A stretch of DNA of 32,913 nt from positions 1 through 32,913 of the forward strand of contig JACCZN010000023.1 of NCBI GenBank assembly GCA_013695915.1, read 5' to 3'. The notes below the pieces were generated by a model, which saw only the letters and a program-made list of their open reading frames with translations, was not told where the DNA came from and ran no database searches. The DNA is from Rubrobacter sp. GTDB taxonomy: Bacteria > Actinomycetota > Rubrobacteria > Rubrobacterales > Rubrobacteraceae. Positions 3,053-10,082 of this stretch are shown in pieces (within the stretch, counting starts at the first letter, position 1; each line of letters starts with the position of its first letter). A program made the translations under genes and the position numbers.

Positions 3053-4141
3053 CTAGCCTCCCGAACGCCCCGAAACCACGGGGAGTATACGCCGCCGGGA
3101 CCGGGAGATCGCGCCCTCCAGCACCGCCTCCGGCGCGACGTTGTACGTCAGGGCCGCGCGAGCCTCACCCACCCCGCTTGCCGCCCCGGCCCAGTCGGCG
3201 CCCGGATAATCCGCCACCAGGCGCCGCATCCGGTCGAGCCGGTCCACGTTCGCCGCGAGCTCCGGCGCCCCCGCGGCGACGGCCGCGCAGTCCCGGTACA
3301 GGAGCGCCAGTAGCTCGAGCGCCTCCCGCACCGCACCGTCCCGGGCGGCCCGGTTGGCGCGTTTGGCCCCATCTTTCGCCCTCCGGTCGGGCTCCTCGAA
3401 GCCCTCCAGGTACTCCTTCTCCCGGGCGGCCCCGACGCTCTCCGCCCGCGCCACTACCTGCGAGACGGCCCCGTAGCGGTCCTCGAAGTCCCCGGAGAGC
3501 CCGAGCCCAGCCTCCAGCACCGCCTCCCGGAGGCCCCGCAGCTCCGCGTCCCCGGAGTAGCGCAGCGCCAGCCCCACGCTCCCCCGCCCGAGAGAGGCCG
3601 CGAGCCGGGCCTCCTCCTCCGGCACGCCGCGCCCCCGGAGGAAGGAGGCGACCTCCCCCTCCGGCACCGGGTTGAACCGCACCGTCCGGGACCGGGAGAC
3701 GACGGTCGGCAAGACGCCCTCTTCGGAGAGGGCGAGCAGCACGAAGACCGCCTCGCCCTCGGGTGACTCCAGGGTCTTGAGCAGGGCGTTCGCCGCCTGC
3801 ACGTTCAGGGTATCCGCCTCCAGGACAAACAAGCGGCGCGCGCCCTCGAACGGCCGCCCGGAGGCCAGCCGCACGAGTTCCCGCACCTGCCCGATGGTCG
3901 TGAACGCCCCTTCGGGCTCGATCTCCGAGAGGTCCGGGTGAAGCCCGCGGAGCGCCCGGTCCTCCGCGGCGGGGTCACCACCGGAGACCAGCACCGAACC
4001 GAACCTGCGGGCCACCGTCCTCTTGCCGAGCCCTGGCGGGCCGTGGAACAGGTAGGCGTGCGCCACCTCCCCGCGCTCGAGGTCCCTCTCCAGGGACCGC
4101 AGGACCGTCTCGTTGCCCAGTATGCCGCTAAAGGTATCCGT
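3053..4141 (-). CDS. holB: DNA polymerase III delta' subunit
   Basis: AHAYLFHGPPGLGKRTVA P-loop, NALLKTLESPEGEAVFVLLA, SRSRTVRFNP. The track starts at GTG 4066, but conserved N-terminus (FSGILGNETVLRSLERDLERGEVAHAYLF) extends to an ACG at 4141 with an SD. Confidence 0.88.
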   Translation of the reverse strand, partial: TDTFSGILGNETVLRSLERDLERGEVAHAYLFHGPPGLGKRTVARRFGSVLVSGGDPAAEDRALRGLHPDLSEIEPEGAFTTIGQVRELVRLASGRPFEGARRLFVLEADTLNVQAANALLKTLESPEGEAVFVLLALSEEGVLPTVVSRSRTVRFNPVPEGEVASFLRGRGVPEEEARLAASLGRGSVGLALRYSGDAELRGLREAVLEAGLGLSGDFEDRYGAVSQVVARAESVGAAREKEYLEGFEEPDRRAKDGAKRANRAARDGAVREALELLALLYRDCAAVAAGAPELAANVDRLDRMRRLVADYPGADWAGAASGVGEARAALTYNVAPEAVLEGAISRSRRRILPVVSGRSGG

Positions 4142-4176: not shown

Positions 4177-4893
4177 CTAAACGGTTCCGCCCGGAGCAGC
4201 CCGGTGAAGGGAGAGTATCTCCTGGCGCACCTCCTGAGCAAGCTCCTCCGGCGGGCGGCGGGCGTCGAGCGCCCGGATGCGGCCGGGCTCCCCCAGCACC
4301 AGCTCCTCGAATCCCTCCTCGACGCGGCGCGCGAAGTCGTCCCCCGCGCTCTCCAGGCGGTCGAGAGGCGTACCGGCTTCCCGGCCCCGGAGGGCCCGCT
4401 CCTCCGCACCGAGACGCAGGTAGAAGGTCCTGTCGGGTACGGCCCCTGCAGCGGCCCGCCCGTTCAGCGACCGTACCTCCTCCATGCCGAGCCCCCGGCC
4501 CGCCCCCTGGTAGGCGAGGCTGGAGTGCAGGTAGCGCTCGCAGAGCACGCTCTGCCCGGCCTCCAGGCGCGGCAGTATCTCCCGCCGCACGTGGTCCGCC
4601 CGGGCCGCCGCGTAGAGGTACGCCTCCGTCCAGGGCTCCATCTCGAGCCCCGGGTCGAGCAGCACCCCCCGGATGCGCTCCGCGGCCGGGGTGCCACCTG
4701 GCTCCCGCGTAAAGTACAGCCCCGGCAGACCGCTCTCGGGGCCGGCGAAGATGCTCTTCAGATGCCGCACCAGGGTACTCTTGCCGGAGAAGTCTACGCC
4801 CTCGACCGTAACGAAGACGCCCCTGCCGGGGCCCCCGATCGAGGTCTCCCCCCCCCGAGCCAGGGGACTAGGCCGCCATCCGGCGGCCGGCAT
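4177..4893 (-). CDS. tmk: Thymidylate kinase
   Basis: VFVTVEGVDFSGKSTL P-loop, TREPGGT, CERYLHSSLAYQG. Adjacent to holB. Confidence 0.92.
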   Translation of the reverse strand: MPAAGWRPSPLARGGETSIGGPGRGVFVTVEGVDFSGKSTLVRHLKSIFAGPESGLPGLYFTREPGGTPAAERIRGVLLDPGLEMEPWTEAYLYAAARADHVRREILPRLEAGQSVLCERYLHSSLAYQGAGRGLGMEEVRSLNGRAAAGAVPDRTFYLRLGAEERALRGREAGTPLDRLESAGDDFARRVEEGFEELVLGEPGRIRALDARRPPEELAQEVRQEILSLHRAAPGGTV

Positions 4894-5650
4894 GACGCTC
4901 GGCAGCGGCCACGTGGGCCTCGAAGAGGCTCCGGTGCGCCGCCCCGTCCCGCGCGGGGCCGCGCATGGCCTCCGCGTGCCACTGGACGCCGAGGAGCCAC
5001 CGCTCCGAGGAGAGCTCCCGGGCCTCTACCGCCTCGACGACGCCGTCCCCGGCCCGGGCGGTGGCCGTGAGGCCCGGGGCGAGGTCCTTTATGGCCTGGT
5101 GGTGGTAGGAGTTCACCTTTATACGGGCGTGGCCCGTGATCTCCCCGACCGTAGACCCCGGGACGAACTCTACCTCGTGCTTGGGGACCCACTTCGGCGT
5201 GGTCTGGCGGTGGTCCAGCAGCTCACCCTCGGCCTGCGAGGGCAGGTCCTGGTAGAGCGTCCCGCCGAGGGCCACGTTGATGAGCTGCAGCCCCCGGCAG
5301 ATACCGAAGACCGGCATCCCGCGGCGCAGGGCGTGCTCCAGCAGCACCGTCTCGAACGCGTCCCGCTCGGACAGGGTAGCGTCGAGCCCGGGCAGAGGCT
5401 CCTCCCCGTAGTAACCCGGGTGCAGGTCGCTCCCGCCGCTGAGCAGCAGGCCGTCCAGCCCAGACAGCATCGCGCCCGCCGCCGCCTCGGGATCTCCGGC
5501 TACGGGCGGCAGCACGACGGGTATACCGCCAGCCTGCTCCACCCCGCTCACGTAGTCGAGGTCCGCCCGCACGAATGTCCCCAGGGGCCGCGTGGCAGTG
5601 GACTCCGTATCCTCCTTGAGGGTGGCCGTTACGCCTATTACCGGGGCCAA
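4868..5650 (-). CDS. Class I glutamine amidotransferase-like, gamma-glutamyl-GABA hydrolase (PuuD) family
   Basis: IGVTATL start, LLLSGGSDLHPGYYGEEP, FGICRGLQLINVALGGTLYQDL, VNSYHHQAIKDLAPGL, GVQWHAE. Confidence 0.88.
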   Translation of the reverse strand: MAPVIGVTATLKEDTESTATRPLGTFVRADLDYVSGVEQAGGIPVVLPPVAGDPEAAAGAMLSGLDGLLLSGGSDLHPGYYGEEPLPGLDATLSERDAFETVLLEHALRRGMPVFGICRGLQLINVALGGTLYQDLPSQAEGELLDHRQTTPKWVPKHEVEFVPGSTVGEITGHARIKVNSYHHQAIKDLAPGLTATARAGDGVVEAVEARELSSERWLLGVQWHAEAMRGPARDGAAHRSLFEAHVAAAERHAGRRMAA

Positions 5651-5677
5651 AAAGATCTATCTCCTAGGTGCTTTCGG

Positions 5678-5706
5678 AACATAGTTACAGGGCGGCAGCG
5701 TAACAA
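5678..5706 (-). promoter_or_regulatory. Candidate sigma70-type promoter for the PuuD-like gene (TTGTTA-N17-TATGTT)
   Basis: Minus strand: TTGTTA (5706..5701), 17-nt spacer, TATGTT (5683..5678), upstream of start 5650. Confidence 0.4.
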
Positions 5707-5770
5707 ACAACCGCGACCGTTGCCAGGACCAGGAAATATCCGCTGGCCCGGACGGGCGGCGAGGTGCGGC

Positions 5771-5790
5771 GCCGCGGGTGCTCCCGCGGC
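5771..5790 (-). terminator. GC hairpin GCCGCGGG-TGCT-CCCGCGGC just after topA stop, candidate terminator
   Basis: Perfect 8-bp stem, 4-nt loop, 22 nt past topA stop. No U tract. Confidence 0.35.
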
Positions 5791-5812
5791 GGGGGGAGGC
5801 CCAGCCGGTCCT

Positions 5813-8011
5813 CTACGTGGTGGACCTCTCCAGCTTCTTCCCGGAGCCCTCCTCCGGCTGCTGCCCGTTCGGGCTCTCGCCGCCCGCGGTCCCGCCTCCG
5901 GCGGTCGTGGCCTCCGATGTCGCCTCTCCTTCCGCTGTCGAGCCGTCGGCCTCTTTGGCCTTTGCGGCCTTCTTCGCTTCGGCGGCCTCGCGTTCGGCCT
6001 GCTTCTTGGGGCAGCTCATATCGATGCAGGTGATCCAGGGCCGACGCCCGCCGACGACCTTTATCTCCGGCGCGCCGCAGCCCTCGCAGAGGGTGCCGAG
6101 CGGTATGATCTCACCCCGCGGCGGCAGCGAGTAGGTCTGGTCGCACTCGGGATATCCCTCGCAGCCCGCGAAGCGCTTGCCGCTCTTCTTGGCCCGCCGG
6201 ACGGTGAGGTTCTTTCCGCACTTCTTGCAGGGCCCGAGCACGGAGTCCTCCCGGATGCCCGCACGCACGATGTCGGCGAACTCGTCCTGGGAGTTCTCCA
6301 GGTGCTCGTAGACGCGCCGCAGCACGTCCCGCGACTCGTCGACCACGGACTCCTTGCCGACCTCGCCCTCGGAGATGGAGTCCATGCTGCTCTCCAGCTC
6401 CGCGGTCATCTCGTGGGTGGCTATCTCGGAGGCGAAGTCCCCGAGGGCCTGCGCGACCGCGATGCCGGTCTCCGTCGGGATGAGCGGGTCGCCGTGGACG
6501 TAGCCCCGGTCGTAGAGGTTCTGGATGATGCCGGGACGCGTGGCCTTGGTGCCGAGCCCGAGGTCCTCCATTATCTGTATCAGACGTCCCTGACCGTACC
6601 GGCCCGGCGGCTGGGTCTCCTTGCCGGTGACCCCGGTTTCAAGCACCCGGACCTCCTGCCCCTCCTCGAGGCGGGGCAGCTCCTCGTCGGAGCGGCGGCT
6701 GTAGGGGTAGACCCCGAGCCAGCCCTCCTCCGTGACGACCGTGCCGCCGGTCGTCAGCGTCTCGCCGCCGGAGCCGAAGCGCAGCGTGGTGCGCAGCGTC
6801 TTTGCCGGGTCCGACAGGGTGGCGAGGAAACGCCGCACGACGAGCTGGTAGACCTTCCACTGGTCGTCCCGGAGCGCCGACTTCGGGGCGTAGCCGGTTG
6901 GGTAGATCGGGGGGTGGTCCGTGGTCTCCTTCTTACCCCGCGTCGGCGAGAGCTTCTCCCGGCCGAGCAACTCCTGCGCGTACTCCCCCGCGCCCTCGAC
7001 CTTCGTCAGGTTCCCTATCGTCTCCCGCAGATCGAGAGATTTCGGGTAGACGGCGTTGTCCGTCCGGGGGTAGGAGATGTAGCCCTCGGTGTACAGGTCC
7101 TCGGCGATGCGGGCCGCCCTGGACGGGCTCAGGCCGAGGTTCGCAGCCGCCGAGAGAAAGACCGTGGTGGAGAACGGTGTGGGCGGCTGGCGCGTGGCGG
7201 ACTTCTGCCTGACCTCCGCAACCCGCGCGGTGTCGGCGAGGTTGCCGTGAGCCGTCCGCGCTGCGGCCTCGTCCCAGAAGCGCTCCGTCTCGTGGCGGAC
7301 GGGGAAGGGCCCGGAGCCGTTCTGCAGGGTGGCATCGAGCTCCCAGTAAGGCTCGGGCACAAAGGCCCGGCGCTCCCGTTCGCGCTCGGCTATAAGCGCG
7401 AGGGTCGGGGACTGCACCCGGCCAACCGAGAGGAAGGCGCTCCCGTAGCGTTTGGTAGCGCGGGAGACCCAGCGGGTAAGGGTCGCGCCCCAGATCAGGT
7501 CTATATCCTGCCGCGCCTCCCCGGCGGCGGCGAGCTCCCGGGAGACCTCGACGAGCTCGTTGAAGGCCCGCTCGACCTCCCCCTTAGTGAGGGCGGAGAA
7601 GCGGGAACGCTCCACGTGGTCCACGAGCGCCGGGTTGGCCTCGAAGACCACGTCGAGAGCCTCGACGCCTATGAGCTCTCCCTCGCGGTCGAAGTCCGTG
7701 GCGACGATGACCCGGTCGGCCTTCTTTGCCAGGGCGCGGATGGCCTCGGCGACGCCCTTCTCGGAGACGGTCTTCTGGATCTCGGCGTCTATCAGGGCAG
7801 AGGGCTCGACCTTCTGCCAGTTGGAGTACTCCTCCGGGTACTCCAGGTTCATCACGTGTCCCTTGAGCCCCAAGGAGATGCACTCCTCACCGTTCCAGGT
7901 AAAGGTGTGGTGCGGGATGCTCCGGTGCTTGCCGTCCTTTACCGGACCGTCGGCGAGGAACTGGGAGATCTTCTTTGCGGCATTCGCTTTTTCAGAGATT
8001 ATCAATCGCAT
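5813..8011 (-). CDS. topA: Type IA DNA topoisomerase, archaeal topA-like, two C-terminal CxxC zinc modules and low-complexity tail
   Basis: MRLIISEKANAAKKISQFL, ATDFDREGELIG, SVGRVQSPTLALI, EGYISYPRTDNAVYP (catalytic Tyr), CKKCGKNL...CEGYPEC, CEGCG...CIDMSCP. Confidence 0.93.
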   Translation of the reverse strand: MRLIISEKANAAKKISQFLADGPVKDGKHRSIPHHTFTWNGEECISLGLKGHVMNLEYPEEYSNWQKVEPSALIDAEIQKTVSEKGVAEAIRALAKKADRVIVATDFDREGELIGVEALDVVFEANPALVDHVERSRFSALTKGEVERAFNELVEVSRELAAAGEARQDIDLIWGATLTRWVSRATKRYGSAFLSVGRVQSPTLALIAERERERRAFVPEPYWELDATLQNGSGPFPVRHETERFWDEAAARTAHGNLADTARVAEVRQKSATRQPPTPFSTTVFLSAAANLGLSPSRAARIAEDLYTEGYISYPRTDNAVYPKSLDLRETIGNLTKVEGAGEYAQELLGREKLSPTRGKKETTDHPPIYPTGYAPKSALRDDQWKVYQLVVRRFLATLSDPAKTLRTTLRFGSGGETLTTGGTVVTEEGWLGVYPYSRRSDEELPRLEEGQEVRVLETGVTGKETQPPGRYGQGRLIQIMEDLGLGTKATRPGIIQNLYDRGYVHGDPLIPTETGIAVAQALGDFASEIATHEMTAELESSMDSISEGEVGKESVVDESRDVLRRVYEHLENSQDEFADIVRAGIREDSVLGPCKKCGKNLTVRRAKKSGKRFAGCEGYPECDQTYSLPPRGEIIPLGTLCEGCGAPEIKVVGGRRPWITCIDMSCPKKQAEREAAEAKKAAKAKEADGSTAEGEATSEATTAGGGTAGGESPNGQQPEEGSGKKLERSTT

Positions 8012-8089
8012 ATTATTTTCCGTTATAACACAGCCTCTATTGCTAAATCCTGCGGTGTGGAGATGGGTAGACGGTGAGACCCCATTATA

Positions 8090-9085
8090 CTATCCCTCCG
8101 GGTTGGGCGAGCCAACCGCCACCTCTGCTTCCTCCTCTGGGGCTGCGGGCTCTCCTATGAGCCGCCGTACCAGGAGGAGGCCACCGATGCCGAGCAGGGC
8201 CGCGAACCACAGGGTAGCAAGGCGAATCACCAGCGTCAGCGCCACCGCCGGACCGCCCGCGAGCCCGGCCAGGGTCCCGAACATGCCCGCGAGCCCGGCC
8301 TCCGCCACCCCGAGCCCTCCCGGCGTGAAGCTCAGGGCTCCCGCCAGAGAGCTTACCGCGAAGATAAACGTCGCCATCAGGAACGGGACCTCCGCCCCTA
8401 TCGCCAGCACACAGAGGTAGACCGCGACTATCTCGAGGCCCCAGCACACAAAGGAGAGCGAGGTCCCCACGGCGAGCGGCCGGACGGCCAGGAGCTCGTT
8501 CGAGGCCCCGTGAAAAGCGCCGAGGTGCGGTGCCAGCCGGTGGAGCACGGGCAGCCTGTAGAGGGCCCGCTCGGCGAGGAGCGAGAGCCTCTTGGAGCGC
8601 AGCACGGCGATACCGGCGACCAGCATCGCGAGGAAGAGCCCCAGCACCCCCAGGCCGAACCGGAAAGCAAGGGCCCCGATCAAGCCCCAGACGAGCATGC
8701 CGGTGCCGTCCGTGACGCGCTCGGCGAAGACCGCCGGGGCCGAGCGGGCGACCGGCGTACCGGAGACCTGCCGGACGAAGAGGCTCTTGAGGACCTCCCC
8801 GAGCTTGCCGGGCGAGATGGCCATGGAGAGGCCCGCGGTAAAGATAACGGCGTTCAGCCTCGCGGGCAGCGGGATGCGCAAGACCCGCAGGTAATACGTC
8901 CAGCGCACGTAGCGCCCGACGTAGGAGAGCCCGACGAGGCCCAGTATCGCGGGTACCAGCGACCACCGGAAGTCCCCGAGCGCCAGCCGGAGGTCGTCGA
9001 AGCCCGAGAGGACGGCGAGCACCAGGTAGACCGCCACACCGAGCCCGACGGCGAGCACCAGGTTCCTCTTCAGGCGGGCGAGCAC
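8090..9085 (-). CDS. Lysylphosphatidylglycerol synthase TM region / UPF0104 family membrane protein
   Basis: Polytopic membrane protein with YVGRYVRWTYYLR, ISPGKLGEVLKSLFV, FTPGGLGVAEAG. Confidence 0.85.
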   Translation of the reverse strand: MLARLKRNLVLAVGLGVAVYLVLAVLSGFDDLRLALGDFRWSLVPAILGLVGLSYVGRYVRWTYYLRVLRIPLPARLNAVIFTAGLSMAISPGKLGEVLKSLFVRQVSGTPVARSAPAVFAERVTDGTGMLVWGLIGALAFRFGLGVLGLFLAMLVAGIAVLRSKRLSLLAERALYRLPVLHRLAPHLGAFHGASNELLAVRPLAVGTSLSFVCWGLEIVAVYLCVLAIGAEVPFLMATFIFAVSSLAGALSFTPGGLGVAEAGLAGMFGTLAGLAGGPAVALTLVIRLATLWFAALLGIGGLLLVRRLIGEPAAPEEEAEVAVGSPNPEG

Positions 9086-9092
9086 TCCCGCC

Positions 9093-9971
9093 TCAGAAGA
9101 TGTAGATGACGGAGACGACGACCGAGAGCCAGAGGAGGAGCGTGATCTGGAGCGGCCTGTCCTGGAGGAGCAGGGTGTCCGGGTTGCCGCCGCCGTCGCG
9201 GTGGACCAGGATCATGTACCGGAAGACCCCGTAGATCACGAACGGTATGCTCGACATCATGATCTCGTTCTCGTAGACGGTGAACGTGTAGAGCGCGTAG
9301 GCGATTATGGTGGTGGCGAGCATGATGTTCATCATCTGGTCCAGCATCGGTACCGAGTAGTCCTTCAGGTTCTTCCGGTGTCCGGCGGCATCCTCGCCGA
9401 GCGTCGCGAGCTCGTGGCGGCGCTTGGAGAACCCGAGGAACAGCGTCAGGAGACCCGTGCAAACGATGAGCCACGGGGAGACCGGGCTGCCGACGGCCGC
9501 AACCCCGGCGAGAGCCCGGAGCACGAAGCCGGAGGAGATGCTCATCACGTCCAGGATAGCCCTGTGCTTCAGGAACGTCGTGTATACGGTCTGCAGGAAC
9601 AGGTAAGCGAGCCCCGTGAGCCCGACCCAGGGGCTCACGGCAAATCCCAGTAGGAGCCCTCCGGCCGCCAGGAGGCCCGAGTACGCCACGGCGACCCGCA
9701 CGGGTACCTCGCCGCTGGCTACGGGGCGGTCCTGCTTTATGGGGTGCTTGCGGTCCTCCTCCACGTCGAGCACGTCGTTCGCGGCGTAGACGGAGCCCGA
9801 GAGAGCGCAGAAAGCGGCGAAGGCCAGAAGGGCAGCCAGGATGGAGGGTCCCTGAAGCACCTCGCCAGAGAACACGAGCCCAGCGAGCACGAACCCGTTC
9901 TTGGTCCATTGCCTGGGCCTTACGAGACGTACCAGGGCCGCCGCCCCCCCTGTAGAACCACCCGCTTCCAT
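9093..9971 (-). CDS. UbiA prenyltransferase, decaprenyl-phosphate phosphoribosyltransferase-like
   Basis: VRPRQWTKNGFVLA, NDVLDVEEDRKHPIKQDRPVASGEV, multiple TMs. Start uncertain (ATG 9971 or GTG 10061). Confidence 0.85.
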   Translation of the reverse strand: MEAGGSTGGAAALVRLVRPRQWTKNGFVLAGLVFSGEVLQGPSILAALLAFAAFCALSGSVYAANDVLDVEEDRKHPIKQDRPVASGEVPVRVAVAYSGLLAAGGLLLGFAVSPWVGLTGLAYLFLQTVYTTFLKHRAILDVMSISSGFVLRALAGVAAVGSPVSPWLIVCTGLLTLFLGFSKRRHELATLGEDAAGHRKNLKDYSVPMLDQMMNIMLATTIIAYALYTFTVYENEIMMSSIPFVIYGVFRYMILVHRDGGGNPDTLLLQDRPLQITLLLWLSVVVSVIYIF

Positions 9972-10082
9972 GACAGCGGTTTCTACCACAAATGCCCCCC
10001 CCGCACACAGCGGTCCGGGAGCCACAAGCCCCGCCGCCACGGCAACCCCGCCTACAGTCACGAGACGGGGTCACGAAACGCG

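Follow-up and report, generated by a model that had tools for sequence, protein, structure and literature searches.

A Rubrobacter genome encodes, in the 32,913 nucleotides of DNA that were analysed here (the window), a topA gene product of archaeal type that belongs to the topoisomerase III class. With a probability of about 0.78, this gene is the native topA of the Rubrobacteraceae, and owes its presence to one acquisition from archaea before the radiation of the Actinomycetota, followed by vertical inheritance and by replacement with bacterial TopA on the Actinomycetes side. An archaeal gene related to the TopA of Halobacteriota would have reached the actinobacterial lineage in a single event that preceded the diversification of the phylum, and taken up its place upstream of tmk and holB (Table 1). 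Vertical inheritance would then have kept it in Rubrobacteraceae, in Coriobacteriia and in many uncultured classes, and in the ancestor of the Actinomycetes-side clade a bacterial TopA would have replaced it in the same slot.

The topA gene of the window and its product

The gene is an intact open reading frame with an ATG start and no internal stops. Its 732-residue product passes NF005555/PRK07220 (1023.9 bits, cut-off 635) and TIGR01057 topA_arch (481.3 bits, cut-off 458), and falls under the cut-offs of TIGR01051 topA_bact (269.9 bits, cut-off 456.4), TIGR01056 topB (256.9 bits, cut-off 515.75), the bacterial topoisomerase III/TopB model NF005829 (295.2, cut-off 597) and the reverse gyrase model TIGR01054 (176.6, cut-off 471.7; the helicase domain is absent); the scores with the archaeal and bacterial models are far above chance. 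Pfam domains found in the protein are Toprim, Topoisom_bac and a C-terminal Zn_ribbon_Top1. The segments LIISEKANAAKKISQFL, NLEYPEEYSNWQKVEPSALIDAEI and DFDREGELIG that the initial annotation had quoted are all present as written, and its claim of an archaeal-type enzyme rather than a bacterial TopA is borne out by the family scores, the gene tree and the hallmark residues.

Table 1. Features of the topA locus in the window
Feature	Position	Strand	Basis
Archaeal-type (PRK07220/topA_arch) type IA DNA topoisomerase, 732 aa	5813..8011	-	NF005555, TIGR01057 over cut-off; Pfam domains
Toprim domain, aa 1-135, with E7-K8	7607..8011	-	Pfam PF01751 aa 3-135
Acidic DFDREGE motif of Toprim, aa 106-112	7676..7696	-	D106, D108, R109, E110, G111, E112 invariant in alignment
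Predicted catalytic Tyr Y314 in ISYPRTDN, then P315	7070..7072	-	Invariant in alignment A2
First C4 zinc ribbon, C595/C598/C617/C623	6143..6229	-	Pfam PF01396 aa 595-631; Cys invariant
Second, degenerate C4 zinc ribbon, C642/C645/C662/C667	6011..6088	-	Cys conservation and AlphaFold2 strands at 634-662
Peptidase C26 / gamma-glutamyl-GABA hydrolase-like gene, between topA and tmk	4868..5650	-	PF07722 227 bits
tmk (dTMP kinase), downstream of topA	4177..4893	-	TIGR00041 138.5 bits, cut-off 83
holB (DNA polymerase III delta'-like), downstream of topA	3053..4066	-	PF13177 passed; synteny
Lysylphosphatidylglycerol synthase TM-region (flippase-like) protein, upstream of topA	8090..9085	-	PF03706 135.5 bits

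Topoisomerase III is marked by a lysine after the Toprim glutamate and a proline after the catalytic tyrosine (PMC10969213), and bacterial TopA by the lack of both; the window enzyme has E7-K8, invariant across 22 aligned relatives, and Y314-P315. The Tyr-Pro pair is found in 91/91 actinobacterial archaeal-type sequences and the lysine in all 87 of those in which the motif search located the site, whereas the canonical actinobacterial TopA of the Streptomyces/Mycobacterium type (TIGR01051), which has the same chromosomal slot and type IA fold and mostly lacks zinc ribbons, has Tyr-Met (21/21) and serine after the Toprim glutamate (19/19 with the site located). All four cysteines of the second zinc ribbon are invariant in the 15 actinobacterial sequences of alignment A1, and C642 and C667 also in alignment A2, archaea included. 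AlphaFold2 predicts a type IA toroid with confidence (mean pLDDT 86.9), together with two zinc-ribbon-like C-terminal modules and a disordered tail; for this model, human TOP3B, human TOP3A and Sulfolobus topoisomerase III are better fold matches than E. coli TopA. These are the nearest solved structures by sequence as well as by predicted fold and share the E-K and Y-P pairs, but they are just 27-29% identical to the window enzyme in the fold alignment. By hallmark residues and nearest predicted fold, the enzyme is topoisomerase III-like in the broad sense that takes in archaeal and eukaryotic members, which leaves the bacteria that carry this type without a canonical Topo I.

The closest counterparts are the archaeal TopA proteins of Methanosarcinales, Methanocellales and haloarchaea (43-49% identity over almost the full length, with the same domains); unlike these, the window gene occupies a bacterial locus upstream of tmk-holB and falls in a separate actinobacterial clade. 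Among named bacteria, Collinsella aerofaciens has an archaeal-type DNA topoisomerase I (WP_320677935.1, 863 aa, 41% identical to the window protein) in the order topA, tmk, DNA polymerase III subunit, ricT. Archaeal-type TopA proteins of Coriobacteriia (L045, L049, L057, L059) are longer (819-922 aa) and have extra C-terminal zinc-ribbon repeats.

A 1134-residue open frame on the opposite strand of the window (4673-8077, +), antisense to topA and its neighbours, is probably a by-product of high G+C, with nothing that points to a gene.

Distribution and chromosomal context of the two topA kinds

The source genome (2.77 Mb in 345 contigs, of which the window is contig 218; rated 100% complete) has three places that match PF01131: the window gene and two pieces at the ends of contigs C148 and C256, whose translations overlap and which make up a single TopB-like topoisomerase III, divided between the two contigs. 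These two places therefore conceal no second topA. No protein of the genome exceeds the TIGR01051 cut-off (best E-value 2.7e-80), and gyrB is present (940 bits, cut-off 882). Thus the second, bacterial-type topA for which the initial annotation had advised a search is absent, and the only other type IA enzyme is the TopB. In the family of the source genome (f1, with records named Rubrobacteraceae), nearly every genome combines an archaeal-type TopA with a TopB. One 98%-complete member (G028) has only the TopB, either through an assembly gap or through true loss of the archaeal-type TopA.

Among 297 evenly sampled Actinomycetota genomes, most of them metagenome-assembled (MAGs), archaeal-type TopA exceeds its cut-off in 135 and bacterial TopA in a disjoint 135; none of the 297 exceeds both cut-offs. 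Fragments and incomplete genomes account for some of the other 27, and so do three families in which TopB is the only type IA enzyme. These families (f14, f39 and f57; L261, L262, L263) yielded neither kind of TopA, only a TopB-like topoisomerase III, and they include two single-contig genomes (G109 and G148). In many deep actinobacterial families, the vertically inherited archaeal type is the standard topA.

The initial annotation had placed the gene beside tmk-holB, in which it was right as to proximity but not as to contact with tmk: the peptidase C26 gene intervenes, as it does in other family members. The holB assignment is based on PF13177 and on synteny; the best NCBIfam matches of this protein are delta' models, every one under its cut-off (TIGR00678 holB, 133 bits, cut-off 180.6), and both tmk and holB are downstream neighbours of topA kept across the phylum. 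The flippase-like gene has the same place upstream of topA in other family members. Further upstream lies a UbiA-family protein gene (9093-10061, -), whose product passes the decaprenyl-phosphate phosphoribosyltransferase model NF008978 (245 bits, cut-off 207).

Across the phylum, tmk and holB lie downstream of the archaeal-type topA on the same strand in nearly all families with enough flanking sequence, and they lie likewise downstream of the bacterial topA in f2, f8, f10, f11, f16, f19, f26, f30, f31, f34, f44 and f61. At the archaeal loci examined, neither gene is beside topA, and in Bacillus, Vescimonas, Legionella and Sinorhizobium topA adjoins or is near dprA, so that proximity to tmk-holB looks like an actinobacterial trait. 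Within Actinomycetota, two dissimilar kinds of topA thus share one gene context, which is the mark of in situ xenologous displacement, and they look to have swapped places inside it.

Bacterial TopA in Actinomycetota falls into two kinds or more, according to a bacterial TopA tree with thin outgroup sampling: the main kind, that of the Actinomycetes, and one in f8, f10, f11 and f44 (L209, L222, L223, L224), which falls elsewhere in the tree and has the same topA-tmk-holB slot. The TopA of f43 (L210, L225) branches from within the Actinomycetes kind (98/97), and its gene is not adjoined by tmk-holB; it thus looks like a secondary transfer.

Origin of the archaeal-type topA

In the rpoB-rpoC tree, the families with bacterial TopA form one clade of 29, plus the single outlier f43, and this clade is next to the archaeal-type families f15, f22, f32, f40, f46 and f48 (support 99). 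A last common ancestor that had bacterial TopA at topA-tmk-holB, with a single later replacement by the archaeal type in the shared ancestor of every lineage not on the Actinomycetes side, is an unlikely starting point, even though bacterial TopA is the usual enzyme of bacteria and the root position needed, with the bacterial-TopA lineages as sister to all others, is not rejected by rpoBC alone (AU p 0.18). These two proteins were too weak to arbitrate polarity and were dropped in that role, ribosomal proteins being added. The resulting species tree of 21 proteins (rpoBC and 19 proteins of the ribosomal-protein region; 5413 columns, 46 taxa, with Firmicutes and Fusobacterium as the outgroup), made like the rpoB-rpoC tree under LG+G4 with no mixture model and with several rows of unusual amino-acid composition, places the bacterial-TopA clade within a clade of 33 rows (94/99), archaeal-type lineages among them, and further archaeal-type lineages fall outside it. 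A tree that forces all other actinobacteria into one clade was rejected by these 21 proteins (dlnL 84, AU p 0.0025). The bacterial-TopA lineages are nested among archaeal-type lineages, and under parsimony the ancestor of the phylum therefore had the archaeal type.

Gene order also speaks against an ancestral bacterial TopA at this locus. Apart from the association of topA with dprA in the other bacteria checked, an H+-pyrophosphatase gene (PF03030) is found directly upstream of the archaeal-type topA in f15, f22, f32, f40 and f46, the families nearest the bacterial-TopA clade in the rpoBC tree, as if the arrangement had been undisturbed, and is also found upstream, on the same strand, of the bacterial topA in f2, f16, f19, f30 and f56. 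A STAS-domain gene has a similar pattern in fewer families.

Of the two origins that the initial annotation had offered, the ancestral version suits the phylum as a whole, whereas a replacement of the native bacterial enzyme in its own locus finds no support for the Rubrobacteraceae lineage, the evidence pointing instead to a takeover of the slot by bacterial TopA on the Actinomycetes side. A displacement of bacterial topA may have occurred earlier, before the last common ancestor of the phylum. There are about even odds on a broader proposal, that this ancestor had gyrase, no bacterial Topo I and an archaeal TOP3-like relaxation activity, as much of the phylum would still have, and that unrelated TopAs of bacterial type have since overwritten the slot on more than one occasion, which would make an immigrant of the enzyme found in Streptomyces and Mycobacterium.

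In a tree of 122 TopA proteins, the actinobacterial archaeal-type sequences form a single clade beside Halobacteriota (SH-aLRT 96). A second tree, rooted with the main Nanoarchaeota type, has the window protein in the actinobacterial clade (99), beside Halobacteriota (100) and a second archaeal phylum (96), with the mutual order of the three not settled; because of this, we infer the direction of transfer from parsimony. Transfer the other way, with an early actinobacterium as donor and the ancestor of Halobacteriota and their archaeal relatives as recipient, would accord with an actinobacterial clade that is a sister branch and not within an archaeal order, but is quite improbable given that the subfamily occurs in at least two archaeal phyla, with an outlying branch in a Nanoarchaeia MAG, versus one bacterial phylum seen so far (the scan of named genomes covered the best 80 loci). 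The nearest archaeal protein is 49% identical to the window protein, and the actinobacterial sequences are an old branch rather than a recent import. In one MAG labelled Slackia heliotrinireducens (L075), topA clusters with f62 and not with Coriobacteriia; the label is probably wrong.

For 20 genomes the topA tree was compared with the species tree, two rows (f18 and Coriobacteriia) being represented by a topA from another member of the family or clade. The two trees share 13 of 17 splits, compared with a mean of 0.3 and a maximum of 4 in 2000 relabellings. That several actinobacterial lineages took the archaeal-type topA separately, from archaea or from one another, is thus very improbable and largely refuted by the single clade (support 96-99), the shared splits and the common slot in nearly all families with enough flank, against which stand some unsettled deep forks in the gene tree and the four of 17 splits that differ from the species tree.

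Recent transfer into the source genome or its family, or an extra plasmid-borne or topoisomerase III-like copy beside a missed topA, is scarcely credible: the assembly is fragmented and type IA enzymes do occur on plasmids, but nearly all the relatives sampled, among them the single-contig genomes G008 and G019, have the gene next to the same neighbours, none of the sampled relatives exceeds the TIGR01051 cut-off, and the gene content of these relatives together with the gene tree rules out recent transfer into the source genome. Mobile sources were likewise rejected. Among the best plasmid matches, this type is found only on a Collinsella replicon that carries rpoBC and ribosomal genes and on a haloarchaeal replicon, and the phage collection yielded only weakly similar enzymes (best 28.5% among the matches listed). 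The viral contigs yielded one relative, an archaeal-type TopA 39% identical to the window protein and encoded on a contig of 243 kb (IMG/VR IMGVR_UViG_3300033153_015063, L227).

The preferred reading, one archaeal acquisition followed by vertical inheritance and replacement on the Actinomycetes side, goes beyond parsimony in the order of its events, which we infer.

Putative function and significance

By analogy with its family, the enzyme likely follows ordinary type IA chemistry, in which Y314 would cut one DNA strand, Mg2+ would be held by the acidic Toprim residues, and another strand would be passed through the toroid, with single-stranded DNA probably held by the two zinc ribbons at the C-terminus. 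As the sole enzyme of the topA slot in a genome with gyrase, it may do the job of Topo I and remove excess negative supercoils. Against this proposed role stands a review (PMC10969213) according to which none of the known archaeal type IA enzymes relaxes DNA robustly in the manner of Topo I.

The family is already known, being catalogued as PRK07220/NF005555, and the Collinsella copy is annotated just as DNA topoisomerase I. No earlier report of archaeal-type topA in Actinomycetota was found in the open-access literature searched, with few subscription papers covered, and the pattern of archaeal-type and bacterial topA across the phylum seems unreported. Lysine repeats have been described for the canonical actinobacterial TopA in a paper stating that all actinobacteria contain this characteristic enzyme (PMC7398561); nearly half of the sampled Actinomycetota genomes contradict that statement, their topA slot being held by an archaeal-type enzyme of the topoisomerase III class. 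Another paper (PMC8185306) does not mention Actinobacteria.

The finding raises the question of how gyrase-bearing bacteria without a canonical Topo I control negative supercoiling. It also calls for caution with drugs directed against bacterial TopA, because Coriobacteriia of the gut, Collinsella among them, have the archaeal type. The topA slot would be a natural example of a core gene exchanged in place, and the archaeal-type topA an ancient marker that ties early Actinomycetota to archaea.
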